In this document: positions 1-11,362 of the stretch, piece by piece
Position numbering within the stretch: position 1 is the stretch's first letter
How the letters are laid out: every line of letters begins with the position of its first letter
Source: Deinococcales bacterium
Lineage (GTDB): Bacteria > Deinococcota > Deinococci > Deinococcales > JAAFIG01
Length of the DNA stretch: 11,362 nucleotides
NCBI GenBank assembly: GCA_013298595.1
Contig: JAAFIG010000058.1
Location: 1 to 11,362, forward strand
Direction: 5' to 3'
The notes under the pieces: model-generated
Seen by the model: the letters and a program-made list of their open reading frames with translations, nothing else
What the model was told of the DNA's origin: nothing
Databases searched by the model: none
Position numbers and translations under genes: made by a program

Positions 1-511
1 GGTTTTTGAGGAAATCAACGACTTCGTTTAATTCTTCTTTGGCTTCGTCGCAACCAGCTACTTCTTTAAATGTGGTGTTTGGTTTCTCAACTTGTTTCGC
101 TCGAGATTTCCCAAAACTCATCGCGCTATCTGCGCCTTCGCCACCACCTGAACGTGAACGAATCAGCATGACCAATAAACCAATCACCACAGCGATACCA
201 ACGAACTGAATTGCCAACATAATATAATCAGCGGTTGGGGCAACTCTTTCGACTTTGTACTGCGTTTGGAATGAGACTCGAGCTGCTTCTAAGGCATCAA
301 ACACCGATTTATCGAGCACTAACTGCACAGTATAATTGGCTGGTTGTGTGCTCCGTGAACTTTCGCTAATCACAGAGGCGCTACCATCTGGATGTAAGGT
401 CACACTGGCAACCCCACCTGTACGCAGTTCATTCAGAAAAGTACTTGCTGAAGGAGCAGCAAGTGCCACACTTAACACGCAAATCAGTATCAAAGCAACT
501 CGAAATACCAT
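1..511 (-). CDS. ftsH: ATP-dependent zinc metalloprotease FtsH, N-terminal part (cut by window edge)
   Basis: FtsH is a membrane-anchored AAA+ protease that degrades misassembled membrane proteins and short-lived regulators. Only the first 170 codons lie in the window. They show a first hydrophobic helix (about residues 3-19), a periplasmic segment (about 20-95), a second membrane helix (about 96-117), a Gly-rich linker, and then the conserved entry to the AAA domain: [24 protein letters not shown] (residues 147-170). The AAA Walker motifs and the zinc site lie beyond base 1. The ATG at 511 is chosen because it directly precedes the first membrane helix and has a TANNNT box (518-523) six bases upstream, which implies a leaderless mRNA. 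The gene is divergent from the aldo/keto reductase. The periplasmic part is short but within family range. Family identity is secure from the [11 protein letters not shown] block. Confidence 0.93.
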
Positions 512-571
512 AGTGTAAGCGTAGCACCTCAAGCATGGGAAAAATGCACATTTTCCCCTATACTGTATGAA
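512..571. promoter_or_regulatory. Divergent promoter region ftsH / aldo-keto reductase, both apparently leaderless
   Basis: This 60-bp spacer must hold both divergent promoters. On the plus strand TATACT (559-564) lies 7 nt before the ATG at 572. On the minus strand TACGCT (518-523) lies 6 nt before the ATG at 511, with a second TACACT (512-517) abutting it. Neither gene has a Shine-Dalgarno sequence. No convincing -35 box is visible for either. The spacing puts the +1 at or next to the start codon, as in the leaderless promoters of Deinococcus. Confidence 0.55.
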
Positions 572-1561
572 ATGAAATATAGACGCTTAGGGAAGACAAA
601 TTTACAAGTCTCGGAAATTGGTTTTGGCGCTTGGGGCATCGGTGGAGCGCTATGGGGCGCAACCAAAGACACACAAAGTATCGCTGCTCTCGAGAAAGCC
701 ATTGATTTAGGCTTAAATTTTATTGATACTGCGTATTTTTATGGCAAAGGGCATTCGGAAAGAATTATTGGTGGTGTGGTACGCGCCAGCAATAAACAGT
801 ATGGCAGCCAATTGCTAGTGGCTACCAAAATCCCACCTAAGAATCGGGTCTGGCCTGCCCAAGCCGACTCGAGTATCGGTGATGTTTTTCCAAAAGCTTA
901 TATTCTTGATTATGTGCAACGCAGCCTTGATAATCTGGGGTTACCGCACATTGATTTGATGCAATTTCATGTTTGGCAGGATTCTTGGGCAGCCCAAGAC
1001 GAATGGCAAGAAACGATTAGCGAAATTACACGGCAAGGTTTGGTTAAACACTGGGGTATCAGCATCAACGATTACCAGCCAAGCAATGCCATCAAAGCCC
1101 TCGAGACTGGTTTGATTGGTGTGGTGCAAGTGATTTTTAATATTTTTGAACAAACCCCTCGAGATTTGTTATTTCCGACTTGTCAAAAACTTGATGTTGG
1201 TGTGATTGCTCGAGTGCCACTGGATGAAGGTGGTTTAACGGGTACCATCCAACCCGATACGATTTTTGCTGCTGATGATTGGCGTTCGCATTATTTCCGT
1301 GATAACCGCAAAGAACTTTTGGCAGAACGCTTAGAAGCTCTTGCCAAGAGCCTTGAACAACTCGAGACACCATTCACCAACCTTGCTGAAGCAGCACTGC
1401 GTTACTGCTTATCTGACACACGAGTCACCACAGTCATTCCTGGCATGCGTAGTGCTGCTCGAGCTGAGCAAAATTGCGCCTTTTCCGATGGCACATTGTT
1501 CAGTCAAGCCGATTTAAAAAGTCTCGAGCCACACGCTTGGGCACGTAACTGGTACGAATAA
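572..1561 (+). CDS. Aldo/keto reductase family oxidoreductase
   Basis: Predicted cytosolic NAD(P)H-dependent reductase of 329 aa with a (beta/alpha)8 barrel. The start [22 protein letters not shown] is typical of the family. The catalytic tetrad is visible: Asp52 and Tyr57 (in FIDTAYFYG), Lys86 (in VATKIPP) and His133 (in MQFHVW). The C-terminal cofactor region [17 protein letters not shown] (residues 285-301) matches the NADP-binding segment of the branch that resembles plant auxin-induced AKRs and YajO/Tas. The physiological substrate cannot be told from sequence. The start at 572 follows a -10 box by 7 nt with no ribosome site, so translation is probably leaderless. The gene ends 2 nt before the convergent condensing-enzyme gene, with no terminator between them. 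Confidence 0.9.
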
Positions 1562-1563
1562 AT

Positions 1564-2787
1564 TTAATCCAAATTCTCGAGACGGGTTTCTTCTACACCA
1601 CTGGGTAATTCGTTCTTGGGGATGTTGTACGTTTCGACCAGTTGAATGAGTAAATCTTCGGGTTTGCGTCCACGCCCAATTTGATGCGTTTGATTTTTGA
1701 AAGCCTCGGTGATGCTCTTAGCTTGTTCTCGAGTGATGGCATAATTTTCGACTTCTTTGAGGTAATAATAAATCAGATTCCAACCCGAAAGTGGTCCGAG
1801 TAGTAACTGGTTTTTATCGACACCAAAATCGTGTAAATTATGGGCTTCGTAGACTTTTTTCTCGTTAAGCACTGCTTTTTGATGCACACCAGCAGTGTGG
1901 GTGCGGTTGGTTAAAGACACAGGTTCGGTGTACGGCACGAGGGTATTAAGAATCGAAGCCATTAAAACATTGATTGGGTAACATTGGCTGAGGTTGTACT
2001 GATTGTGTAATTCTGGATAACTTTTTGACAAATTAAATAACGCCCCTGTCACCGAAGGAATCCCTGAACGCTCAGCTAAACCCCAAATCGAAGTGTCTAC
2101 GTACTTCACACCCGCCCGCACTGCTGCCAGCACATTAGCAAAAGCCAAGCCTCGGTCGTTATGAAAATGGCACTCGAGGGCAACGTTGGGGTATTTTTGT
2201 CGCAAAATACCAACAACTTCGGTCACATCGTGGGGTTCGGCTAAACCCACCGTATCAGGAATACCAAACGTGTTCACAAACGGGTACATGGCATCGTATA
2301 GCAACCATAAATCCTGACGGTTTGTGCGAAACGCATCTTCGGCACTAAAGCGCATATACAAATCTGGCAATTGCAAACGCACATTCTTGGCTGCATCCGA
2401 AGCCAGCGTTATGGCTTCCTCGAGCGATTTTTGGGCATTGTGTTGTTGCGCCAAAGCCGAAACCCCAAGGTACAAGTTTAAGCCATTACAACCCGCTTCT
2501 AAAGCCCGTTCGATATCCACAGCATGACAACGACAATGCCCTAGTAACAATAATGGTTTATCAGTCAGTGTTTTAGCATGGGCAATTAGCGCTCGCACAT
2601 CATCCTCTTCGGCTTTACCAACCACAGGCGAAAAGAATTCAAAGTGGGTGATACCCAATTCGATCAAACCTGCCAATAACAATTTTTTTTCCTCGAGGGT
2701 AAAACGGTATTTTAGCGTATCAAACAACAACGGTGATTGCTGACCATCGCGGAATGTCGTGTCTATCATTTCGATACGTTGATTCAT
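1564..2787 (-). CDS. DRE-TIM (HMGL-like) acyl-CoA condensing enzyme: homocitrate / isopropylmalate / Re-citrate synthase family
   Basis: A 407-aa enzyme of the family that condenses acetyl-CoA with a 2-oxo acid. It has the N-terminal signature MIDTTFRDGQQ (Arg13, Asp14), the metal-binding HxH in CHFHNDRG (His207, His209), WGLAERSGI (235-243), the second histidine motif THTAGVH (297-302) and a closing LGPLSGWN (330-337). It lacks the long C-terminal leucine-regulatory domain of standard LeuA. The DTTFRDGQQ form differs from the Thermus homocitrate synthase start as I recall it and recalls Re-citrate synthase-like proteins, so substrate is uncertain. The open frame runs up to 2889, but those 34 extra codons are encoded by the leader hairpin. 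The ATG at 2787 has a purine-rich ribosome site (GGAAAGAG, 2791-2798) and starts at the conserved domain. Expression is probably attenuated. Confidence 0.85.
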   Translation of the reverse strand: MNQRIEMIDTTFRDGQQSPLLFDTLKYRFTLEEKKLLLAGLIELGITHFEFFSPVVGKAEEDDVRALIAHAKTLTDKPLLLLGHCRCHAVDIERALEAGCNGLNLYLGVSALAQQHNAQKSLEEAITLASDAAKNVRLQLPDLYMRFSAEDAFRTNRQDLWLLYDAMYPFVNTFGIPDTVGLAEPHDVTEVVGILRQKYPNVALECHFHNDRGLAFANVLAAVRAGVKYVDTSIWGLAERSGIPSVTGALFNLSKSYPELHNQYNLSQCYPINVLMASILNTLVPYTEPVSLTNRTHTAGVHQKAVLNEKKVYEAHNLHDFGVDKNQLLLGPLSGWNLIYYYLKEVENYAITREQAKSITEAFKNQTHQIGRGRKPEDLLIQLVETYNIPKNELPSGVEETRLENLD

Positions 2788-2850
2788 TGTCTCTTTCCTA
2801 TTCTCGAGGTTTGTGCATGGCAATGCTTGTCTGCACCCTAGACGATATAC

Positions 2851-2883
2851 AAAAAAACCGACTCGTTGAAAATCTCGAGTCGG
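2851..2883 (-). terminator. Intrinsic terminator inside the leader (attenuator)
   Basis: Perfect 8-bp stem CCGACTCG / CGAGTCGG (arms 2876-2883 and 2858-2865), 10-nt loop, followed on the minus strand by seven U (2851-2857). It lies between the promoter at 2955-2984 and the gene start at 2787, so it would cut transcription after about 100 nt unless read through. One arm includes most of a CTCGAG motif. Confidence 0.75.
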
Positions 2884-2907
2884 AGGCAATCAGCAAAAAA
2901 CGAGTGC

Positions 2908-2949
2908 TTAACTCGAGCCTCCGTGCCAATGTTTTCCATAATTTTGCAT
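2908..2949 (-). CDS. Possible 13-aa leader peptide MQNYGKHWHGGSS
   Basis: The ATG at 2949 lies 5 nt after the TACACT box of a consensus promoter, so the transcript would begin at this codon and the peptide would be translated leaderlessly. The stop codon falls in the loop of the small hairpin 2901-2915, a position where a terminating ribosome could alter the downstream folding. The peptide has His-Trp-His but no leucine run, so a classic leucine attenuator is not supported. The ORF is very short and could be chance. A second overlapping frame (ATG at 2939, stop at 2838) would run through the terminator. Confidence 0.3.
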   Translation of the reverse strand: MQNYGKHWHGGSS

Positions 2950-2954
2950 GACGG

Positions 2955-2984
2955 AGTGTAACTTAGGCTTAAGAAACTTGTCAA
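2955..2984 (-). promoter_or_regulatory. Sigma-70-type promoter for the condensing-enzyme leader
   Basis: On the minus strand, TTGACA (2979-2984), an 18-nt spacer and TACACT (2955-2960). The predicted start is at about 2949. This is one of the two best promoters in the window. Confidence 0.7.
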
Positions 2985-3068
2985 GAAAAGGCATGAAGGT
3001 GAAAGGAAAAAGTCAACCGTAGCAGTGGGGCTTGCCTCGCCCTAGACCATTTTGTCACTATTCCCATC

Positions 3069-3099
3069 AAAAAAAACGGAGCGCTTTTAGCGCCCCGTT
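3069..3099 (-). terminator. Intrinsic terminator after the L25 gene
   Basis: On the minus strand a 10-bp stem AACGGGGCGC / GCGCTCCGTT with one G-U pair, a TAAAA loop and a run of eight U (3069-3076). It starts 15 nt after the L25 stop codon and closes the aroB-pth-L25 block. The rest of the stretch, 2985-3068, shows no gene or other signal. Confidence 0.9.
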
Positions 3100-3113
3100 C
3101 GAGAGAACATATT

Positions 3114-3710
3114 TTATTTCTCTTCTTTTTTGCCTTTAGCAATCACTTCTGGTTCAGCCACAGCTGCAACAACTTCTTCGGAAACTCGAGCATGATGAAT
3201 AACCAAAACCGTTGCTTTAGGATCAGAAACGAGTTTAACATTTTCTGGTAATGCCAAATCGCCAGCGTGCACTGGTTGGTTGACCTCGAGCTTTGAGATG
3301 TCCACAATCAGTTCTTGTGGGATGTTCTTAGGAGCGCATTTAACGGTGACGTTGTGGGCTACAATGTCGAGCACGCCACCAGCTTTAACGGCTGCGGAAA
3401 CACCCTTGGTATGAACTGGAATAACCACTTCGATTGGTTCGTCGGAAACAATTAAGAAATCAGCATGTTCCGCAATGCGTTTTTTCTTATTCATCGCTAC
3501 GGCTTTGACCAAAGTATCGAACTTTGCGCCATCGTCGAAGGTGAGGGTAATCACGCCGTGGGTGCTGACTTGGCGGAAAACTTTATCGAATGCTTTGCGT
3601 TCTACGAAAATACTTTTGTTGGTGACTTTATCGTAAACCACAGCAGGTAGCATACCTTCACTGCGTAAGCTACTTGATTTTTCGGTGCGAACTGTTGCCT
3701 TTAATTCCAC
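3114..3710 (-). CDS. rplY: Large ribosomal subunit protein bL25, two-domain CTC/TL5 form
   Basis: Binds 5S rRNA in the central protuberance of the large ribosomal subunit. At 198 aa it is the long form: an N-terminal L25 domain (about 1-90, MELKATVRTEKSSSLRSEGM and the LPAVVYDK beta strand, HADFLIV at 82-88) and the C-terminal beta-rich TL5/CTC domain (about 92-175, with GGVLDIVAHNVTVKCAPKNIP), then an acidic/basic tail. Long forms of this type are called CTC or TL5 in many bacteria, including Thermus and Deinococcus. The open frame extends to 4004 but the first 98 codons overlap pth and look nothing like L25. The real start is the GTG at 3710, preceded by a strong GGAGG (3716-3720) at 5 nt. 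It lies 91 nt after pth, and its own terminator follows. Confidence 0.92.
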   Translation of the reverse strand: MELKATVRTEKSSSLRSEGMLPAVVYDKVTNKSIFVERKAFDKVFRQVSTHGVITLTFDDGAKFDTLVKAVAMNKKKRIAEHADFLIVSDEPIEVVIPVHTKGVSAAVKAGGVLDIVAHNVTVKCAPKNIPQELIVDISKLEVNQPVHAGDLALPENVKLVSDPKATVLVIHHARVSEEVVAAVAEPEVIAKGKKEEK

Positions 3711-3801
3711 AAAAACCTCCAGACCGCACCTCGAAGGCGCGGCAAGCCTTGGGAGTGTACTACAAGTTTGGCTCTGAGGGAAGGGGCAGGTAAGCCCAAT
3801 A

Positions 3802-4425
3802 CTATGAAATGGTTGTGTCAGGGCTATCTGGCGTGGGTAGAACCATTGGTTTAGGGCGTAAATCTGTGCTATTAAAAACATTTTGTGCCACCTGAGCACC
3901 GTCTTTGAGAATTGCTGTGACTGCATTGGCTGCAACCACAATGATTTCCTCGAGCATGGTTTGTTCTTCTGGTTTAAAATTGGACAATACCCAATTGGGA
4001 ACACTCCATTCGGGTGGTGGTCTGGAAATACCTATTTTGAGACGGACATAATTTTCTTGCCCGAGTTTAGCAGAAATATCTTTAATGCCGTTCTGTCCGC
4101 CACTCGAGCCTCCTGTACGAATCCGTAAACGCCCAAAAGGCAAGTCCAAATCATCGTGTATGACAAGTAATTCAGATGGCTCGAGTTTATGAAAACGCAT
4201 AAAAGGAAGCACTGCTTCGCCTGATAAATTCATGTACGTGAAAGGTTTTTGTAACCAAATTTTGTTTGTGCCACCTCGAGTTTCAGCGAGTTCGCTATTG
4301 CCACGTTTTAACCAAGTGGCAGCTTGGCGACGAGCAAATTCCTCGAGTACCAAAAAACCAATGTTGTGCCGATTGCGACTGTACTGTGTTCCTGGGTTGC
4401 CAAGCCCAACGATCAAACGAATCAT
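3802..4425 (-). CDS. pth: Peptidyl-tRNA hydrolase
   Basis: Cleaves the ester bond of peptidyl-tRNAs released from stalled ribosomes, recycling tRNA. 207 aa, slightly longer than the E. coli enzyme because of a C-terminal tail of about 20 residues. The start MIRLIVGLGNPGTQYSRNRHNIGF contains Asn10 and the catalytic His20. Asn66 (in TYMNLSG), Asp91 (in VIHDDLDLP) and Asn112 (in GGQNGIKDI) occupy the other active-site positions. The ATG at 4425 has TATGCT (4431-4436) only 5 nt upstream and no ribosome site, so it may have its own leaderless promoter inside the aroB-pth spacer (49 nt). Pth next to L25 is a common bacterial arrangement and both serve translation. Confidence 0.95.
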   Translation of the reverse strand: MIRLIVGLGNPGTQYSRNRHNIGFLVLEEFARRQAATWLKRGNSELAETRGGTNKIWLQKPFTYMNLSGEAVLPFMRFHKLEPSELLVIHDDLDLPFGRLRIRTGGSSGGQNGIKDISAKLGQENYVRLKIGISRPPPEWSVPNWVLSNFKPEEQTMLEEIIVVAANAVTAILKDGAQVAQNVFNSTDLRPKPMVLPTPDSPDTTIS

Positions 4426-4430
4426 GCCTG

Positions 4431-4436
4431 AGCATA
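4431..4436 (-). promoter_or_regulatory. Candidate -10 box of a leaderless pth promoter
   Basis: TATGCT on the minus strand ends 5 nt before the pth ATG, which places +1 on the start codon. No good -35 is seen; TTGGAC lies 20 nt upstream, which is wide. Pth could equally be read through from aroB. Confidence 0.4.
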
Positions 4437-4474
4437 ACAGAGGTTGTCAGGTAAAAGTCCAAGCAACAATCAAC

Positions 4475-5530
4475 TCAAGCAGCCAGAAAAGCTAGAAACC
4501 CTGCCCATGTTTGCTCGAGTACCGCTTCTGGGACTCGTTCAAGTTTTGGTTTGCCAATAGCCTCGAGTAGCACAAAGCGAACCCCTGCGTTATCCGCTTT
4601 TTTATCTCGAGCCATAAAGTCACGCACACTGACCCAATTCAGTTCTGGCAATGGCATTGGTCGTTGATACTCGAGAAAAGCTTTGGTTTGGGGGCTAAGG
4701 TCGGTATAACCCATGTTTTTACCCAGCAGCGCCGCATAGTGCATTCCGTACCCAACAGCTTCGCCATGTGGCACAGCGTGGTGTGTTATCGCTTCGAGGG
4801 CATGCGCTAAGGTATGTCCAAAATTCAGATACGCCCGTTCGTTTTGTTCGGTAGGGTCGCGCTCTACAATATCTATTTTGACTTGCACTCCAGATGCCAA
4901 GGTTTGCTCGAGATTGCTATGGGTTGCGTTAAACCCTGTCTCGAGCACTGCTGCACACAATTGTGGATTAGCCAGTAAGCCATGCTTAAAAAGCTCAGCC
5001 GCGCCTTCTCGGAAGGTTCTGAGTGGCAAACTTTCCAAGGTGTTGGTATCCATAAAAACCGCTTTAGGTTGATGAAAAGCACCCACAAGGTTTTTACCTT
5101 CGGGTAAATTAACCCCTGTTTTACCACCCACACTGGCATCCACCATCGCCAGAAGGGTTGTCGGACAAACATAAAAAGCAATACCCCTCAGGTAACTCGC
5201 TGCAACATAACCCGCTAAATCGCTGGTTGCACCACCACCTAATGCTACGACTGCACTATCTCGAGTTAAACCCAACTGAGCTAATTGCGATAACAATTGT
5301 GCATGTATCGCCAGTGTTTTGGCTACTTCGCCTGCTGGGATAGTGAGTAAATACACACTTGAGCCACCTTGCTCGAGACTGGCAATCAGAGCAGGAGCGT
5401 ACAATGGCGCAATCTGACTATCAGCAATCACAACCACTTGTTTTTCTGGGATACGAACTTGTTGCAATGTTCCTCGAGCGATACGAATACGGTAAGCAGG
5501 GTTTAAATGCACAGTTAAATCAAATTCCAT
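4475..5530 (-). CDS. aroB: 3-dehydroquinate synthase
   Basis: Second step of the shikimate pathway: converts DAHP to 3-dehydroquinate, using NAD and a divalent metal in the cytosol. 351 aa, the usual bacterial length. Visible motifs are the NAD-binding GGGATSDLAGYVAASYLRG (98-116), TTLLAMVDASVGGKTGVN (124-141, with Lys137), REGAAELFKHG (metal ligand Glu179), LNFGHTLAHALE (His239) and PHGEAVGYGM (His255). The ATG at 5530 begins directly at the fold and lies 6 nt after a TAAACT box (5537-5542), another apparently leaderless start. No other shikimate gene is in the window. It is first in a minus-strand group with pth and L25. Confidence 0.96.
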   Translation of the reverse strand: MEFDLTVHLNPAYRIRIARGTLQQVRIPEKQVVVIADSQIAPLYAPALIASLEQGGSSVYLLTIPAGEVAKTLAIHAQLLSQLAQLGLTRDSAVVALGGGATSDLAGYVAASYLRGIAFYVCPTTLLAMVDASVGGKTGVNLPEGKNLVGAFHQPKAVFMDTNTLESLPLRTFREGAAELFKHGLLANPQLCAAVLETGFNATHSNLEQTLASGVQVKIDIVERDPTEQNERAYLNFGHTLAHALEAITHHAVPHGEAVGYGMHYAALLGKNMGYTDLSPQTKAFLEYQRPMPLPELNWVSVRDFMARDKKADNAGVRFVLLEAIGKPKLERVPEAVLEQTWAGFLAFLAA

Positions 5531-5629
5531 TGCTCTAGTTTACAATGTCTTATTCAATGCAGGTTTCGCACACCACACAATGCAGGTTTCGCACACCACA
5601 CAATGCAATAACCATGTAGACTAATACCT
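5531..5629. promoter_or_regulatory. Divergent promoter region aroB / RDD protein
   Basis: On the minus strand TAAACT (5537-5542) lies 6 nt before the aroB ATG. On the plus strand TAGACT (5617-5622) lies 7 nt before the GTG at 5630. Neither has a consensus -35. The two -35 regions fall at either end of a 23-bp tandem repeat, so the repeat could serve as a shared regulator site. Confidence 0.5.
5555..5607. repeat. 23-bp direct tandem repeat, 2.3 copies
   Basis: Two identical adjoining copies (5555-5577 and 5578-5600), beginning CAATGCAGG and ending CACACCACA, followed by the first 7 bases of a third (5601-5607). It lies between two divergent promoters. It could be a duplicated protein-binding site or a recent slippage event. 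There are too few copies, and no spacers, for CRISPR. Confidence 0.95.
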
Positions 5630-6889
5630 GTGAGTGACTGGATTAACACGATACGACAATCCGTGGGCGGTAGCGTCCACGCGCAAATAGACACACCCGA
5701 CGCTGCCATGCTGCTCTCCGATAACGAGTTGGTGTACATCAACGCCAGCGGTATGCAACGCGCCCGACTTGGCGATATTGCCAAAGTCAGCCGTGAAAAT
5801 GGTGAACTTGTCATTTCCTCGAGTACCACAGCTCTGATTCGTGGCGCGATCAAAGCGGATAAAGAAACCTTATCAAATTTCTTTTCACAAGTGAAACAAG
5901 TCGCAGCTTGGTCTCGAGAACGTCGCACTGTCATCATGGATAATCCAAATGCCACACCAATGGATTCAAGTTTTATGGGACGTGCTCCAGATAATGGAAT
6001 TGTCAAAACCGAAATGCCCGACCCAATCGGTGATATGCCATTACCCGAGCAGTACCGCCCAATGGTCAGTGTCAACCCCATTGAAACAAAACCAATGACT
6101 CCACCGCCACCACCTGTTGCGCCTCGAGCCAACCCCGAAAGCGCCCTAGGTCGAGGCATGACCGCTCCTCGGGATGAAGCCTTGATTGCTCTGGACAAAC
6201 CAAAAACCATGTCAGCTCCACGTCTCAGCGAAGCCAACAACGAACCCATTCGTCAAGATTATGCGGGTTTTTGGATGCGATTCTTAGCCTATATTATTGA
6301 TGCCATTGTGCTAGGTATTGCTGGTGGTATTATTTCAAATATCTTTACTGGTTCTGCAAGTTCCGCCTTGACACAATTAGCAACAAACAATGCAGGCTCG
6401 AGTAACTCACAAGAAGCTTTGAATCAGATCGCTGCTATTTTGCCTGGTTTTTTTACATCTGCTATTTTGGCTACAGCAGCAATTACGATTTTAACTTGGT
6501 TGTATTACGCAATGATGGAATCCAGCGAACGCCAAGGGACGCTTGGTAAAATGGCACTTGGTTTAGTTGTCACCGATGCAAATAACAAACGGATTTCCTT
6601 TGTCCATGCGACAGGGCGTTACTTTGCCAAATCAATTATTTCGTTCATCATGACAATTGTTACTTTATTAAGTCTTTTCCCACTGGTTGGGACAATTACC
6701 AATCTCGTCAGTAGTGGTGGTAACAGCAGCGATGGATTAACCGCTTTTTACACTGTGTTTGGTGGTATCGCCGCGATTTTGGGCATTGGTAGTTTAGCCA
6801 ATTTAATTGCCTATGTTATGGCTGGGTTTACAGCTAGAAAACAAGCACTGCACGATATGATAGCTAAAACCTTGGTTTATCGAAAGTAA
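5630..6889 (+). CDS. RDD-family integral membrane protein with a soluble N-terminal domain
   Basis: 419 aa in three parts. Residues 1-100 are soluble, with alternating beta strands (AAMLLSDNELVYINASG, ELVISSSTTALIRG) reminiscent of a small PH-like fold; I do not recognise the family. Residues 100-205 are a disordered linker with a proline run (TPPPPPVAP, 157-165). Residues 211-419 are an RDD domain: Arg217 and Asp224 in YAGFWMRFLAYIIDAIVLG, the sequence GTLGKMALGLVVTD (303-316) and the closing ALHDMIAKTLVYRK with Asp409. About four membrane helices are visible (218-238, 270-293, 335-360, 374-398). RDD proteins are poorly characterised; some have been linked to ion exchange. The GTG start at 5630 is inferred from the -10 box 7 nt upstream; there is no ribosome site. 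An intrinsic terminator follows. Confidence 0.8.
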   Translation: MSDWINTIRQSVGGSVHAQIDTPDAAMLLSDNELVYINASGMQRARLGDIAKVSRENGELVISSSTTALIRGAIKADKETLSNFFSQVKQVAAWSRERRTVIMDNPNATPMDSSFMGRAPDNGIVKTEMPDPIGDMPLPEQYRPMVSVNPIETKPMTPPPPPVAPRANPESALGRGMTAPRDEALIALDKPKTMSAPRLSEANNEPIRQDYAGFWMRFLAYIIDAIVLGIAGGIISNIFTGSASSALTQLATNNAGSSNSQEALNQIAAILPGFFTSAILATAAITILTWLYYAMMESSERQGTLGKMALGLVVTDANNKRISFVHATGRYFAKSIISFIMTIVTLLSLFPLVGTITNLVSSGGNSSDGLTAFYTVFGGIAAILGIGSLANLIAYVMAGFTARKQALHDMIAKTLVYRK

Positions 6890-6898
6890 GCTTTACCT

Positions 6899-6929
6899 AA
6901 AAGCGGAGCCACATAGCTCCGCTTTTTTT
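6899..6929 (+). terminator. Intrinsic terminator after the RDD gene
   Basis: Perfect 9-bp stem AAGCGGAGC / GCTCCGCTT (6901-6909, 6916-6924), CACATA loop and a run of seven T (6923-6929). Four A on the left give weak capacity in the other direction, so it may also help end the convergent operon whose last gene stops at 6943. Confidence 0.9.
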
Positions 6930-6942
6930 GGTCTCTCGAGAT

Positions 6943-7605
6943 TTAAATACTTCGACGTTCAGGGTCTGCTTGGTATTGTTTCTTGCTGTAAAACCACAAG
7001 TAAGTAAGGCTGGTAAACATCGCGGCTGTCCAAATAAGCATAACGGTTATCAAGATACTCGAGGGCAATGTCAAAGCAAGAATAGCTAAAGTTGCGCCAA
7101 GGATAACCCAGTGCCAACCACCTACGCGGTGGGTGGCATACCAAGCGCGGTCGCTGCCGAATGTCCAAGGGAATTTGATACCTGCGAATTTATTGGGTGG
7201 GGTTTTTGGCATGATATTGCCTATGACCATAAATAATGCACCTATAGCAATAAAGAAAATTCGTGAATCACCAATGCTATTATTTTTGAAAGCAGCAATG
7301 ATCCAAAATTGCAGAATAATCATAAATAATGTAATGGTTATTTGTATTGTACTCATTGTTTTTTGGGCATCACGAACTCGAGCATCTAAGTTAGGTAAGA
7401 ATTTATCCATTACCCATAATAATAAAATGGCAATGGCAGGTATCAACATGATGATGCTTGCCTCGAGCCGATTACCGTAACGGTCTGGGTTACCGTTGAT
7501 ATCAAAATGCACTGCGACTCGTTCTGGTAATTGAGCTGCACTAATAAAAGCAAATACACTGCACCAAATCGTTGCACCTATACTGAGTAAATCGAGGGGT
7601 TTCAT
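6943..7605 (-). CDS. SdpI-like membrane protein (DUF1648 plus SdpI domain)
   Basis: 220 aa, about six membrane helices (roughly 7-22, 50-67, 88-106, 113-131, 165-181, 183-205). The N-terminal DUF1648 signature is LPERVAVHFDINGNPDRYGN (26-45). The C-terminal SdpI signature is IGNIMPKTPPNKFAGIKFPWTFGSDRAWYATHRVGGW (128-164). In Bacillus subtilis SdpI protects against the killing peptide SDP and, by sequestering SdpR, senses it. Here the gene directly follows an SdpR-like regulator with a 4-bp ATGA overlap, the same order of partners as in Bacillus. No sdpABC toxin genes are in the window, so self-immunity is not shown. Resistance to foreign peptides or an envelope-stress role is equally possible. 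This is the last gene of the operon. Confidence 0.88.
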   Translation of the reverse strand: MKPLDLLSIGATIWCSVFAFISAAQLPERVAVHFDINGNPDRYGNRLEASIIMLIPAIAILLLWVMDKFLPNLDARVRDAQKTMSTIQITITLFMIILQFWIIAAFKNNSIGDSRIFFIAIGALFMVIGNIMPKTPPNKFAGIKFPWTFGSDRAWYATHRVGGWHWVILGATLAILALTLPSSILITVMLIWTAAMFTSLTYLWFYSKKQYQADPERRSI

Positions 7606-7883
7606 ATCGTCTCCTTGGGAGTTTCTCGAGGGGCAAAAAAGTCAAATAAATGGGCGACCACATCTTCAAAAACACTGGTGTTTAAGCAGTAAGTAATGGT
7701 TGTGCCGCGTTTATCTTGGATAATTAAATCGGCGGCTTTGAGGACATTAAAATGTCCACTGAGGGTACTTTTTGCTAAGGGAAAAAGGTCGGATAATTCG
7801 CCTGCACTACGTTCTTGTTCACGTAGTACGCGCAGAATTTCACGGCGAGTTGGGTCGGCAAGGGCTTTAAAAATTTCGTTCAT
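7602..7883 (-). CDS. ArsR-family repressor, SdpR-like
   Basis: 93-aa winged-helix DNA-binding protein. MNEIFKALADPTRREILRVLREQERSAGELSDLFPLAKSTLSGHFNVLKAADLI has the usual ArsR/SmtB start, with the recognition helix at about 37-50, followed by a wing (KRGTTITYCLN, 58-68). The alpha-3 metal motif of metal sensors (ELCVCDL) is absent; ELSDLF stands there, as expected for a non-metal SdpR type. The operon position between the hydrolase (4-bp overlap) and SdpI (4-bp overlap) suggests it represses its own operon, with SdpI as membrane partner. The candidate operator is the palindrome at 8856-8879. Its function is inferred from the Bacillus SdpR/SdpI pair. Confidence 0.88.
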   Translation of the reverse strand: MNEIFKALADPTRREILRVLREQERSAGELSDLFPLAKSTLSGHFNVLKAADLIIQDKRGTTITYCLNTSVFEDVVAHLFDFFAPRETPKETI

Positions 7884-8839
7884 GGCACAATAAATTTCTC
7901 GAGTGCAATCAGTAAACTCGGGGCAATGGCTAGGTTTGGGTTGGTGTAGGCTGCGTTTTGCGAACTTGGCTCGAGGGTAGCAAGTTTGAGTACGTGGTTC
8001 ATGCCTGTCAGAATGGTTGGTTGTTGCCCAATGGCATTGCCTAGGCGCTGAGCATCAGCAATACTGACTTGAGTATCGGTGCTGCCTTGTAGTATCAAGA
8101 TTCGAGTTTGTAGTTTTTTAATTTCTTCAGCTGGGTCGTACTGAAACCATGAAATTAAATAAGGTTGTACACTGTCTCGGAATAATATTTGTACCAGTTG
8201 GGTTGGTAATTGAATTTCTTTGCTCGGAACCAATTCACCATTTTGGAGTTTAGCAAAAACCCGTTTGATTTCTTCGAGCATTGCCGTGGTGACTTGGGGC
8301 GTGAGTTGCTCGAGTAAAATATCACTGATACGCCGACCAGCTCCAGCTAAGGAGATATAGCCTGTTACCTTGGTTTTTTGGGCTGCTAGTACGCCCAATA
8401 AACTGCCTTCGCTATGTCCGATGATGTAAACACCCGAGAATCGGGTGTCGGTTTTTAGCTTCTCGAGTAAGGCGCTGGCATCGTTGGCGTAGTCGTCGAA
8501 ACGCAGTTCGGTTTCGGTTTGTGTACTTTGGCTTGTGCTAACACCACGTTTATCGTAACGCAGCGAGGCGATACCTTTAGCTGCTAGGGCTTGGGCTAAT
8601 AATTTGTAACTATTAGATTGGAATTGTGTGCCTACTGAATTGCCATTTTGGTCGGTTGCGCCACTACCTGCGATGATGAGTACTACGGGGATTTTGCCAC
8701 TCGAGCCAATGGGTATGGTCAGTGTGCCATTTAGCGTTACTTTTGGTAGTTCAAGACGAATGCTCTCGAGTTTGGAGGTATTTTGGGCAATAGCTGTGAT
8801 GCCAAGAAGTGCTAAGGCTGTGATGACAATTTTGTTCAT
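7880..8839 (-). CDS. Exported alpha/beta hydrolase
   Basis: 319 aa. The N-terminus MNKIVITALALLGITAIAQ is a signal peptide-like segment without a lipobox cysteine, so the enzyme is probably periplasmic or loosely exported. The alpha/beta-hydrolase fold shows VVLIIAGSGATDQNG (oxyanion region, 52-66), the nucleophile elbow IIGHSEGS (Ser143), Asp255 in LQGSTDTQV and His282 in GMNHVLK, giving a complete Ser-Asp-His triad. It resembles the EstA-like and serine aminopeptidase-type hydrolases; the substrate is unknown. A strong SD, AAGGAG (8844-8849), precedes the ATG. It is the first gene of an operon with the SdpR-like repressor and SdpI-like protein and shares its last four bases with the repressor start. 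An esterase or peptidase co-expressed with an immunity pair suggests a role in envelope or peptide defence, an inference only. Confidence 0.88.
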   Translation of the reverse strand: MNKIVITALALLGITAIAQNTSKLESIRLELPKVTLNGTLTIPIGSSGKIPVVLIIAGSGATDQNGNSVGTQFQSNSYKLLAQALAAKGIASLRYDKRGVSTSQSTQTETELRFDDYANDASALLEKLKTDTRFSGVYIIGHSEGSLLGVLAAQKTKVTGYISLAGAGRRISDILLEQLTPQVTTAMLEEIKRVFAKLQNGELVPSKEIQLPTQLVQILFRDSVQPYLISWFQYDPAEEIKKLQTRILILQGSTDTQVSIADAQRLGNAIGQQPTILTGMNHVLKLATLEPSSQNAAYTNPNLAIAPSLLIALEKFIVP

Positions 8840-8855
8840 AAAACTCCTTAATTTG

Positions 8856-8879
8856 GTATTTCGCCAATTACCGAAATAC
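8856..8879. promoter_or_regulatory. Palindromic operator over the hydrolase-sdpR-sdpI promoter
   Basis: Perfect 8-bp arms GTATTTCG (8856-8863) and CGAAATAC (8872-8879) flank an 8-nt centre; the centre itself adds AA/TT, so 20 of 24 bases obey the symmetry. One arm overlaps the -10 box (8876-8881), and the site reaches past the predicted +1. A dimeric winged-helix repressor such as the SdpR-like protein in this operon is the obvious candidate ligand. Confidence 0.7.
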
Positions 8880-8904
8880 TAGACCTCGAGCCGAAATTTG
8901 TCAA
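8876..8904 (-). promoter_or_regulatory. Sigma-70 promoter of the hydrolase-sdpR-sdpI operon
   Basis: On the minus strand TTGACA (8899-8904), an exact 17-nt spacer and TAGTAT (8876-8881). Predicted +1 is near 8869, giving a leader of about 30 nt that contains the AAGGAG ribosome site. A CTCGAG motif sits inside the spacer (8885-8890). Confidence 0.8.
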
Positions 8905-9169
8905 GAGGATAAGCTAGAAGTCACTCAAACAAACCCCAGAGCTGTTTTAGCAAATCGAAAAGGCGAAATCAAAAGGATCGCAACCTACAAAATCTAAATT
9001 CAGTACACCACAAAAATCAAAAATATGAACCAACAACATGGCTACCCAACATTTTCATCCTCGAGCCAATCTTGCTTCATCCTTATTTCCCTTTTCCTTC
9101 TTCCGTCTGTCAGTCCAATGTGATACTTTGACACTTAGAATTCTGTCCTGAAAGCGAGGCTGTTGTTTC
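8905..9169. other. Gene-free spacer between the hydrolase operon promoter and the kinase gene
   Basis: No coding frame worth reporting. About 8976-9040 is rich in A and C and poor in G; 9081-9104 is almost purely pyrimidine on the plus strand. The kinase promoter must lie near the right end: TAGAAT (9136-9141) is a possible -10, and a TTGACA (9128-9133) is present but has no -10 at normal spacing. I see no RNA gene or strong hairpin. Confidence 0.5.
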
Positions 9170-10657
9170 GTGACTCTCCCCCCATTCCAATCCGAAGTTC
9201 AATCCTTGGTCGAACGCCTCTCGGCGAATGCTAAAGCTGTTGCTCTCAGCGAACTCGAGAACGGTGCTAAAAACCTAGAAAAAATTGCACTCCAAGCGGG
9301 TGCTACGCATCTGGCTCGAGTCTCTAATCGCTTAGCTGGTCTCGCCAAAACTGCTGCCGAAATGAGTTTTCCTGTGTCTTTAATGGTGCTGGATACAACC
9401 TTTAAAGCTTTAGAACGTGCCGATGTTAGCGAGAATCTGGATCGTTTAGAAACAGTGCTAGAAAGTTTAGAAGAAGAAGCTTTTTTGTATGCTCCTGCTA
9501 TGGGTTCGCTTAATCTCGAGCCTACACCTGTGCTTGAACCACAATCAGATGAAGCCACAGGTGGTTTTAGGCGAATTTTATCAGTAGATGATTCTGGGTT
9601 GGTTCGTAGTGCTTTGCGGCGCATTTTTGCCGAAGCGGGCGCGGGTGTCGAAGAGGCACGTAACGGCACAGAGTTACTCGAGCGGCTCAAAGAAATTGGT
9701 AAATACGATTTAGTACTGCTGGATTTACAAATGCCCGATTACACAGGTCTCGAGTTATTGCCGCATATCCGTAAAGCCTCGCAAGATGTGGTGGTGGTGA
9801 TGCTCACCGCTGCTGGTGATGTCAAAACCGCCATCGAAGCCATGCGAATCGGCGCCGATGGTTTTCTAGCCAAACAAGATTTACCACTCGAAGGTGATCG
9901 TAGCGAATTTTATTATGCGCTCGAGCAAGCCAAAGAGTACCGCGCTGGCATTATTGCCCGCCAACAACTCGAGAGTATGAAAGCCGATTTGTACAGCATG
10001 GTGACGCATGACCTGAAAAACCCTGCCAATGTGATTGGTTTAAGTTTAGAGCATATTCTCGAGAATAACACCAGTAATTTAACCGCCGAACAACATAAAG
10101 CTTTACAAGTTGGTAAAGATGCTGCTGAAAAATTACAACGCCTTGTGGTGGATTACCTCGATTACGCCAAAATAGACGCAGGGTACTTTACCCTCGAGCC
10201 AAACCCAACCGATATTGCTGTGCTGATTCGCTCGAGTGCTGAACAAGCTAAAGTGATTGCTACCAGCAAAGGGCAGCGCCTGAACTTAACCTCCCCAGAT
10301 AAACTCGAGACGATTGCCGATGAACCCCGCTTAAAACAAGTGGTGGATAACCTGATTGGTAACGCCATCAAATACACCCCAGATGATGGCTTAATAGATG
10401 TACAACTGACCACCACAGGTTCGTTATTTCGGATTTCCGTTGCCGATACAGGCAATGGTATTGCCGCCGATCATCTGCCACGTTTATTCAAAAAATATCA
10501 GCGCTTACCTGGCGAGCAACGCCGCAGCACAGGCACTGGTTTAGGCTTAGTGATTGTCAAAAGCATCATCGAAGCCCACGGCGGACGAGTCTGGGCAGAA
10601 AGTGCTGGTGTTGGCGAAGGCAGCACGTTCACCCTCGAAATACCCATAAGGAATTAA
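9170..10657 (+). CDS. Cytosolic hybrid histidine kinase: helical N-terminus, REC, HisKA, HATPase
   Basis: 495-aa signalling protein without membrane helices. Residues 1-110 are all-helical; the segment with His47 (ATHLARVSNRLAGLAKTA) faintly recalls an Hpt domain but lacks a clear HxxKG motif. Residues 134-250 are a receiver domain: Asp140/Asp141, phospho-acceptor Asp185 in LLDLQMPD, Thr213 and Lys235. Residues 265-335 are HisKA with His280 in SMVTHDLKNP. Residues 345-495 are the ATPase: N-box VVDNLIGNAIKYTP (391-404), G1 DTGNGIA (426-432), F-box LFKKYQR and G2 GTGLGLVIVK. All catalytic residues are present. A receiver before the kinase suggests it takes phosphate or is gated by another kinase; no partner response regulator is nearby. 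The GTG start at 9170 has only a weak GAGG (9156-9159) upstream. It contains about 11 CTCGAG motifs. Confidence 0.9.
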   Translation: MTLPPFQSEVQSLVERLSANAKAVALSELENGAKNLEKIALQAGATHLARVSNRLAGLAKTAAEMSFPVSLMVLDTTFKALERADVSENLDRLETVLESLEEEAFLYAPAMGSLNLEPTPVLEPQSDEATGGFRRILSVDDSGLVRSALRRIFAEAGAGVEEARNGTELLERLKEIGKYDLVLLDLQMPDYTGLELLPHIRKASQDVVVVMLTAAGDVKTAIEAMRIGADGFLAKQDLPLEGDRSEFYYALEQAKEYRAGIIARQQLESMKADLYSMVTHDLKNPANVIGLSLEHILENNTSNLTAEQHKALQVGKDAAEKLQRLVVDYLDYAKIDAGYFTLEPNPTDIAVLIRSSAEQAKVIATSKGQRLNLTSPDKLETIADEPRLKQVVDNLIGNAIKYTPDDGLIDVQLTTTGSLFRISVADTGNGIAADHLPRLFKKYQRLPGEQRRSTGTGLGLVIVKSIIEAHGGRVWAESAGVGEGSTFTLEIPIRN

Positions 10658-10668
10658 GAGGAACATAA

Positions 10669-10709
10669 AAAGACGAAGGCAAAAGACCAATTCCTTTGCC
10701 TTCGTCTTT
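10669..10709. terminator. Bidirectional terminator hairpin between convergent genes
   Basis: Perfect 15-bp stem (10669-10683 with 10695-10709, AAAGACGAAGGCAAA and its complement) and an 11-nt loop. On the minus strand the stem runs into UCUUUUUA, a good terminator tail for the sufT-like gene side. On the plus strand the T tract is short. It starts 12 nt after the kinase stop and lies 13 nt beyond the sufT-like stop. Confidence 0.85.
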
Positions 10710-10721
10710 GCTCTGCTTTAA

Positions 10722-11078
10722 CTACATATTAAAGCCAAACATTCGCATTTGGCGTTTGCCATCCTCGGACATTTTGGCAGGAGTCCACGGTGGAGTCCAG
10801 ACAAAATCCACGGTCACTGCCGAAACACCCTCGAGTCTCATCAGAGCAAGTTCAACATCAGCGCGAATCATGTCTTGAACTGGGCAACCAACACTGGTTA
10901 AGGTCATTTCGATGTCCACCATGCCATTAGGCGCAGTGACAACTTTGTACACCAAGCCTAAATCCACGATGTTAACAGGGATTTCGGGGTCTTTGACAAC
11001 TTTCATTGCCTCGAGAATTTGTTCTTCGGTTGGAACGGCATTACTGATTTCGGTTTGCTGTTCAACGACTGCTTCCAT
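10722..11078 (-). CDS. sufT: MIP18-family (DUF59) Fe-S cluster assembly protein, SufT-like
   Basis: 118 aa. The MIP18/DUF59 fold is shown by EEQILEAMKVVKDPEIPVNIVDLGLVY (18-44), the conserved cysteine in TSVGCPVQDMI (about 61-71) and a C-terminal WTPPWTPAKMSEDGKRQMRMFGF. The WxPPWxPxxM ending is typical of the SufT/PaaD-like branch, which helps mature Fe-S proteins. The ATG at 11078 has an AGGAGA site (11084-11089) that overlaps the stop codon of the preceding rhodanese gene, so the two are translationally linked. No sufBCDSU genes are visible here. The exact role (SufT or another DUF59 protein) is not fixed by sequence alone. Confidence 0.85.
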   Translation of the reverse strand: MEAVVEQQTEISNAVPTEEQILEAMKVVKDPEIPVNIVDLGLVYKVVTAPNGMVDIEMTLTSVGCPVQDMIRADVELALMRLEGVSAVTVDFVWTPPWTPAKMSEDGKRQMRMFGFNM

Positions 11079-11087
11079 GATTATCTC

Positions 11088-11362
11088 CTAAACAACGGGT
11101 AAACCTTCTGCGATCCAAGCGTTAATACCACCCTCGAGATTAGCGACTGTGTACCCATTTTGCTCGGCGAATTCGGCGGCTCGAGCGCTGCGGACACCAC
11201 CAGCGCAAATCAGAACAATTTCTTTGTCCTGAGGCATTTCTGTGTAACGGGTGCTGAATTCTGATAAGGGAATCAGTGTGGCATTGGCGACATGGGCGGC
11301 ATCCCATTCGTTTTGTTCACGCACATCGATCAGCACAGCACCTTGCTCGAGACGACTTTTAG
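11088..11362 (-). CDS. Rhodanese-domain protein, C-terminal part (cut by window edge)
   Basis: Sulfurtransferase-type domain. The frame is open to the end of the window and reads KSRLEQGAVLIDVREQNEWDAAH and onward, which aligns with a normal rhodanese before the GTG at 11336; that codon is therefore an internal Val and the true start lies beyond 11362. The active-site loop CAGGVR, with the catalytic Cys in IVLICAGGVRSARAAEF, is followed by NGYTVANLEGGINAWIAEGLPVV, the standard C-terminus. A single-domain thiosulfate sulfurtransferase next to a SufT-like gene suggests a sulfur-transfer link with Fe-S assembly. The stop codon lies 9 nt before the next gene. Confidence 0.9.
   Translation of the reverse strand, partial: KSRLEQGAVLIDVREQNEWDAAHVANATLIPLSEFSTRYTEMPQDKEIVLICAGGVRSARAAEFAEQNGYTVANLEGGINAWIAEGLPVV

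Follow-up and report, generated by a model that had tools for sequence, protein, structure and literature searches.

For three decades the iterated element HIP1 has lacked an explanation, and it has been regarded as something peculiar to cyanobacteria. Here we describe another iterated palindrome, CTCGAG, in a draft genome of the phylum Deinococcota (G000; 68 contigs totalling 4,582,226 bp, at 94% completeness), and in particular in one whole contig of that genome (C54), an 11,362-bp stretch of DNA that we call the window. HIP1 is the sequence GCGATCGC of cyanobacteria, and alternate HIPs exist (Elhai 2015, PMC4390886). Its density is 300–2,700 per Mb, with one alternate HIP, rCCGGy, reported to exceed the others (PMC4390886). 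Elhai's repair model requires a methylated GpC within the palindrome and saturates near 1 site per 1000 nt (PMC4390886); the GpC criterion belongs to this model and not to every HIP definition. The uptake sequences (USS/DUS) of Pasteurellaceae and Neisseriaceae are longer and non-palindromic, favour non-coding DNA, and are accompanied by over-represented near-matches (PMC1939737). CTCGAG is also identical to the recognition sequence of the XhoI/PaeR7I restriction-modification systems; adenine methylation within it prevents XhoI from cutting. In the GATC/Dam system of Enterobacteria, a short palindrome that is read at the DNA level occurs about 4 times per kb in E. coli.

The earlier note on this DNA had likened CTCGAG to HIP1, and the parallel holds for the genome-wide excess, the presence in coding and non-coding DNA and in all codon phases, the retention between species, and the action at the DNA level. 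Both are palindromes in huge excess, found within and between genes; each extends over related genomes, some of which have lost it. CTCGAG is not HIP1 itself: sequence and phylum differ, and 411 kb of G000 contain only 7 copies of CGATCG where 46 would be expected, a depletion. It further differs in being a hexamer without extension, in its density (~5,900 per Mb against 300–2,700 per Mb), in its graded strength across a single order, and in that the genomes where it is strongest share no methyltransferase of the five families searched. Because CTCGAG contains no GpC, the published repair model is inapplicable as written, and at 1 site per 169 nt the element is six times denser than the saturation of that model (~1 per 1000 nt). 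Given its extreme excess, its occurrence in all contexts and its conserved copies, CTCGAG is a HIP-class element, and the best reading is that it is new outside cyanobacteria; no earlier description of iterated CTCGAG was found in the open-access literature searched. Like USS/DUS, it is a short oligonucleotide in large excess with slightly over-represented near-matches, but it is denser, palindromic and without preference for non-coding DNA. It shares with GATC a similar density, although GATC reaches that density without enrichment. Unlike in XhoI/PaeR7I systems, the strong-excess genomes have no XhoI nuclease, and the nuclease carriers of the order have reduced CTCGAG.

A recount of the window gave 67 copies of CTCGAG (45.7% GC), the figure that had been estimated before, against 2.3 expected from base composition and 1.3 from a first-order Markov model, a 29- to 50-fold excess; the runner-up palindromic hexamer has 8 copies. 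The excess is not a local anomaly of the window, since CTCGAG occurs 27,159 times in the whole genome, on average every 169 bp (5,930 per Mb). A Markov-corrected count of palindromic hexamers over 1.19 Mb of G000, with the copies masked from the background, gave an observed/first-order expected ratio of 94 for CTCGAG and at most 1.6 for every other palindromic hexamer, which rules out that others are equally enriched. The reversed control GAGCTC occurs only 15 times genome-wide, but it is itself strongly avoided, and the contrast of 27,159 with 15 is thus not the fairest figure. First-order expectations understate codon effects in GC-rich genomes; hence we also shuffled synonymous codons within the real proteins of G000, and a 12-fold excess remained. 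Information in the flanks is below 0.03 bits at each position, which rules out a longer unit with conserved flanks and bears out the earlier view that the flanks look random and that the unit is the hexamer itself.

CTCGAG acts at the DNA level, regardless of coding phase, gene and strand. Its density in G000 is 5.86 per kb in coding and 5.67 per kb in non-coding DNA, and all three codon phases, whose use had been noticed in the window, are enriched over the synonymous shuffle (3,426 observed against 296 expected for the phase spelling Leu-Glu, 1,530 against 150, and 1,201 against 55). CTC makes up 91% of Leu codons before GAG and 10% elsewhere, and CTCGAG spells 67% of all Leu-Glu pairs. Because Leu-Glu pairs are themselves 2.38 times too common, with Glu-Leu at 1.01 times expectation, the element reshapes the proteome. 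The Leu-Glu ratio is 2.0–2.4 in the remaining strong genomes and 1.1 in G004, a relative with few copies.

From one species to another, copies are far more durable than other hexamers. Over 40 kb of blastn alignment of G000 with its sister species G001 (72% identity), 318 of 516 copies (62%) were intact, as compared to 19% of other hexamers; the best of these reached at most 48%, being itself an overlapping piece of CTCGAG. Only 8% of CTCGAG copies were one mismatch away, as compared to 32% of controls. Synonymous positions are far diverged between the two species, since four-fold degenerate sites are 45% identical. Conservation at synonymous sites, proposed earlier as a check, was evident in CTC codons (80% retained within CTCGAG, 46% elsewhere) and GAG codons (85% and 50%). 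At conserved Leu-Glu pairs, 85 of 101 copies were retained, and where such a pair is not CTCGAG in G000, it is CTCGAG in G001 in 33 of 62 cases. Lost copies are regained at a high rate. Retention was similar in the three codon phases (66, 60 and 63%), non-coding copies were kept in 10 of 14 cases, and within the window 24 of 40 alignable copies were intact.

A 16S search yielded no hit in any of the genomes, and the host is assigned by bL25 and by its kinship with identifiable genomes to a Deinococcota lineage, within the order containing Thermus and Meiothermus. The ribosomal protein bL25 encoded in the window resembles its counterparts from Thermus thermophilus and Deinococcus much more closely than any others and has a TL5-type C-terminal domain. 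We coded the families of this order f1 (that of the window) and f2, and the genera g7, g10, g11, g13, g20 and g21; we infer that g7 is Thermus and g13 Meiothermus, with g13, g20 and g21 as Meiothermus-type genera. The comparison with related genomes that the earlier note had called for revealed a graded excess. All four f1 genomes contain 26,600–28,200 copies each. Within f2, genus g11 has 21,868 copies in G012 and 14,690 in G016 (58% complete), while G008 has 13,552 and G004 only 683. Meiothermus-type genomes have ~1.4–3.4 copies per kb (7,570 copies in the cultured species Meiothermus ruber, G025), and Thermus has ~0.6–1.1 per kb, which is background. The genomes are drafts, 91–94% complete, and samples outside G000 and G001 comprise at most 100 kb. 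With codon usage fixed, observed/expected ratios were 12.3 (G000), 11.0 (G001), 9.0 (G003), 6.2 (G002) and 12.3 (G012) in the strong genomes, 3.6 in G008, 3.8–5.0 in G015 and G052, 0.5 in G004, and 1.0 in Thermus G007, of which only 15 kb was sampled. The excess was seen in seven genomes of two families. Density is 5.8–6.2 per kb in the five strong genomes of both families, at G+C contents of 45 (G000), 49 (G001), 53 (G003), 60 (G002) and 48.5% (G012). In sampled loci of G004 (L256-L257), CTCGAG stands at 0.3 of expectation, the excess having been lost or never present; in the same genome GATC is 2.1 times expected and TTAA is almost absent.

Near-matches indicate how copies decay. One-mismatch forms occur at 1.46 times background in G000 and two-mismatch forms at 0.94 times. 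Transitions lead the one-mismatch excess, with TTCGAG/CTCGAA at 3.0, CCCGAG at 2.0, and CTTGAG/CTCAAG, the deamination products of CTCGAG, at 1.7; CACGAG, CGCGAG and CTAGAG fall below background, as they also do in G004. The one-mismatch forms resemble ordinary products of decay through transitions. From the ratio of perfect to one-mismatch forms we computed a scaled strength B, which is 3.73, 3.62, 3.20, 3.11 and 3.67 in the strong genomes, ~1.9 in G008 and G052, and -0.8 in G004. The pair correlation of CTCGAG in G000 is flat beyond 60 bp. Although short gaps are rare and gaps of 60–180 bp common, regular spacing was rejected, since the correlation reflects repulsion below 60 bp only. Close pairs are under-represented in genes (0.2 at 6–9 bp, rising to 0.8 at 48–60 bp); this deficit is absent in spacers and for control hexamers. 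A 6-bp stem could form between two copies on the same mRNA. Hairpin avoidance in mRNA is a guess as the cause of the close-pair deficit, because the deficit shrinks with distance and spans more than one codon phase.

The explanation that we rate highest, at not quite an even chance, is that a HIP-class element is kept by a uniform small advantage per site through recognition by a sequence-specific DNA protein. Mutation would be balanced by a uniform, site-by-site, selection-like force with B of ~3.1–3.7, each copy carrying a roughly equal small advantage. The putative reader would either bind CTCGAG, in nucleoid or chromosome organisation, or modify it; the site may be one for a nucleoid or segregation protein, as suggested earlier. 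New copies would arise by point mutation and then be kept, with Leu-Glu and Ser-Ser replacements resulting at positions where proteins can bear them. Since sites outside genes do not repel each other, each seems to add its own advantage irrespective of local spacing. A more specific proposal, which we make only tentatively, is that a system of Deinococcota reads DNA chromosome-wide at CTCGAG, is convergent with HIP1 and independent of a conserved methyltransferase, and is strong enough to rewrite the proteome, the density being held near 6 copies per kb over 15 G+C points.

Several observations weigh against selection for a protein-read site. The reader protein was not found, five methyltransferase families yielding none common to the strongest genomes. 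Function-free biased conversion would likewise give one strength at all ~27,000 sites, in genes and spacers alike, and the flatness of the pair correlation offers no hint of a function that depends on spacing. Finally, B falls with rising G+C at constant density, which a fixed per-site advantage would not predict on its own.

The rival that survives best, although we consider it somewhat unlikely, is a function-free bias of repair or gene conversion, in which site-destroying mismatches are repaired back or near-sites are converted, much as in Elhai's methyl-directed repair model. It would account for the uniform strength everywhere, the equal coding and non-coding densities, and the lack of neighbour dependence beyond 60 bp, and the scarcity of one-mismatch copies between G000 and G001 (8% against 32%) is in its favour, as are the solitary XhoI-type methyltransferases of Meiothermus-type genomes with moderate excess. 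However, no one-mismatch form is emptied genome-wide (CTTGAG/CTCAAG stand at 1.7 and TTCGAG/CTCGAA at 3.0 times background), which makes biased repair, a possibility raised before, unlikely as far as one particular mismatch is concerned and rules out efficient Vsr-like conversion of a single mismatch type, the form in question not being depleted. Moreover, the strong genomes share no methyltransferase of the five families, and the Elhai model needs a GpC, of which CTCGAG has none, and saturates at ~1 per 1000 nt, as compared to 1 per 169 here (PMC4390886). Because density is steadier than B across G+C and decay products are not erased, we lean slightly towards selection for a protein-read site over a function-free biased process.

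A solitary CTCGAG methyltransferase could itself be the reader, either as an epigenetic mark or in a Dam-like role in mismatch repair or replication, with the f1 enzyme lying outside the searched families or missing from the drafts; we regard this as quite improbable. The search covered five Pfam families in 16–20 genomes, followed by all-against-all comparison, and found no enzyme common to the strong genomes. An m5C enzyme shared by G000, G001 and G012 (L128, L130, L129) was rejected as a candidate, having no close relative in G003 or G008. In G009, a frameshifted, decayed XhoI-family nuclease gene lies beside a gamma-class XhoI-type methyltransferase (L065:1120-2871, L383:1408-2099). Close relatives of this enzyme (~50% identity, full length; alignment A1) occur in Meiothermus-type genomes, and those of G015, G025 (M. 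ruber), G037, G046, G047 and G058 encode the full-length enzyme without any genomic XhoI nuclease. Such carriers speak for a solitary methyltransferase, but the enzyme is absent from G000, G001, G003, G008, G012 and G016, with no more than a remote relative (195 bits) in G002, and its presence hardly tracks CTCGAG density among Meiothermus types. Only the nuclease next to it suggests that it is specific for CTCGAG. The solitary enzyme is thus a lead in Meiothermus and does not explain the lineage of the window. Of the search for a solitary methyltransferase suggested earlier, the Meiothermus candidate is the positive part, and the idea of an orphan methyltransferase mark found no support in the five families for the lineage of the window. 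The solitary gene (L386, L389) occupies the same chromosomal place in G025 (L436:3353-5143; genome position 2,437,391-2,439,139) and G015 (L438:4207-6084), downstream of the same gene and with no nuclease nearby. A D12-type methyltransferase (67–90% identical) and an N6/N4-type methyltransferase (~75% identical) recur across the sampled Meiothermus-type genomes and are absent from Thermus G007 (L420, L421, L422, L428, L429; L107, L109, L110); these are likely lineage-wide solitary methyltransferases of Meiothermus types.

The expectation that an active XhoI system depletes its site was supported. XhoI-family nucleases (PF04555) are absent from G000-G003, G008, G012 and G016 and occur in four genomes of the order, none of which has a strong CTCGAG excess. 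Three genus g10 genomes with an intact nuclease (G018, G041, G042; L380, L381, L382) have 0.70, 0.97 and 0.87 copies per kb, respectively, as compared to 1.65–1.97 in three g10 siblings without it. The intact nuclease gene adjoins a beta-class methyltransferase in all three. As a separate matter, most other palindromes are extremely avoided in G000 (loci L045-L064, L200-L239): in 1.19 Mb GGCC occurs just 30 times, at 0.008 of expectation; GGGCCC and AGGCCT are missing altogether, and there are hardly any copies of GAGCTC, TTCGAA, CCGCGG, GGCGCC and TGGCCA. Which palindromes are avoided varies among G000, G001, G002, G003 and G012, as though the lineage were under pressure from many restriction systems.

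Less probable still seems a signal for DNA uptake or self-recognition that natural transformation would spread by molecular drive. Thermus and its relatives are naturally competent, which would suit such a signal. One-mismatch forms are mildly over-represented, as reported for uptake sequences, but known uptake sequences are longer, non-palindromic and biased towards non-coding DNA (PMC1939737), a bias that CTCGAG lacks. In addition, CTCGAG is several times denser than known uptake sequences, two-mismatch forms show no excess, and the sampled Thermus sequence has none either (observed/expected 1.0). That the excess is a side effect of preferred codons or dipeptides, or an artefact of the locality or the assembly, can be virtually discounted, for although Leu-Glu as CTC-GAG is the largest of the three phase classes, the other two are equally or more enriched, and codon usage as the cause is ruled out by the 12-fold excess that survives the synonymous shuffle and by the equal non-coding density, and the excess occurs in seven genomes of two families.

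In the window itself, copies begin at positions 100, 277, 689, 868, 1100, 1158, 1209, 1361, 1458, 1523, 1576, 1728, 2173, 2419, 2692, 2803, 2874, 2912, 3185, 3285, 3949, 4103, 4180, 4275, 4342, 4514, 4562, 4606, 4670, 4907, 4940, 5260, 5372, 5473, 5818, 5913, 6123, 6397, 6935, 7058, 7377, 7462, 7625, 7898, 7970, 8309, 8462, 8700, 8765, 8885, 9060, 9254, 9315, 9515, 9677, 9749, 9920, 9968, 10058, 10193, 10231, 10304, 10830, 11010, 11133, 11180 and 11346. Those placed by the earlier note at 868, 1100, 1158 and 8885 are correct, as is its statement that copies are spread over every gene. Two that it placed at 2876 and 2911 exist but start at 2874 and 2912, and its description of them as hairpin arms was not upheld: they are mostly unpaired or partly paired in the predicted fold, which is no better than shuffles (z -1.19). 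On the forward strand, an aldo/keto reductase gene (572..1561) has 8 copies (689-1523), 6 of them intact in G001, and a hybrid histidine kinase gene (9170..10657) has copies at 9254-10304. Genes on the reverse strand encode an HMGL-like/homocitrate-synthase-type protein (1564..2787; copies 1576-2692), bL25 of the Thermus TL5 type (3114..3728; copies 3185 and 3285), peptidyl-tRNA hydrolase (3802..4425; 5 copies at 3949-4342, 4 intact in G001) and 3-dehydroquinate synthase (4475..5530; copies 4514-5473). The copies at 8885 and 9060 are non-coding, in an intergenic spacer (8840..9169). The start of the window (1-174) is a dispersed repeat at a contig end, its first 64–174 bases matching several other sites in G001, G002 and G003 at 75–83% identity.

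Elsewhere in G000, islands low in CTCGAG look recently acquired. These are a polysaccharide gene cluster of ~30% GC (L213:10000-20000, at ~70–84 kb of contig C34), an MBL/ThiF/JAB-like defence cluster (L055:7000-12500, contig C3), and an island containing a D12 methyltransferase (L434:3855-8475, contig C2). Viral contigs with clustered CTCGAG were also noted, but these sequences are too selected and too short to bear interpretation.

A second, denser HIP case in another phylum separates general from cyanobacterial explanations. The gradient is useful in this regard, running from absent in Thermus through moderate in Meiothermus to extreme in f1 and f2. A GpC-containing palindrome is not needed for a HIP-like excess, and a DNA-level element can alter amino-acid composition genome-wide. 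M. ruber is cultured and combines its 7,570 copies with a candidate solitary XhoI-type methyltransferase, making ideas about methylation and binding directly testable.

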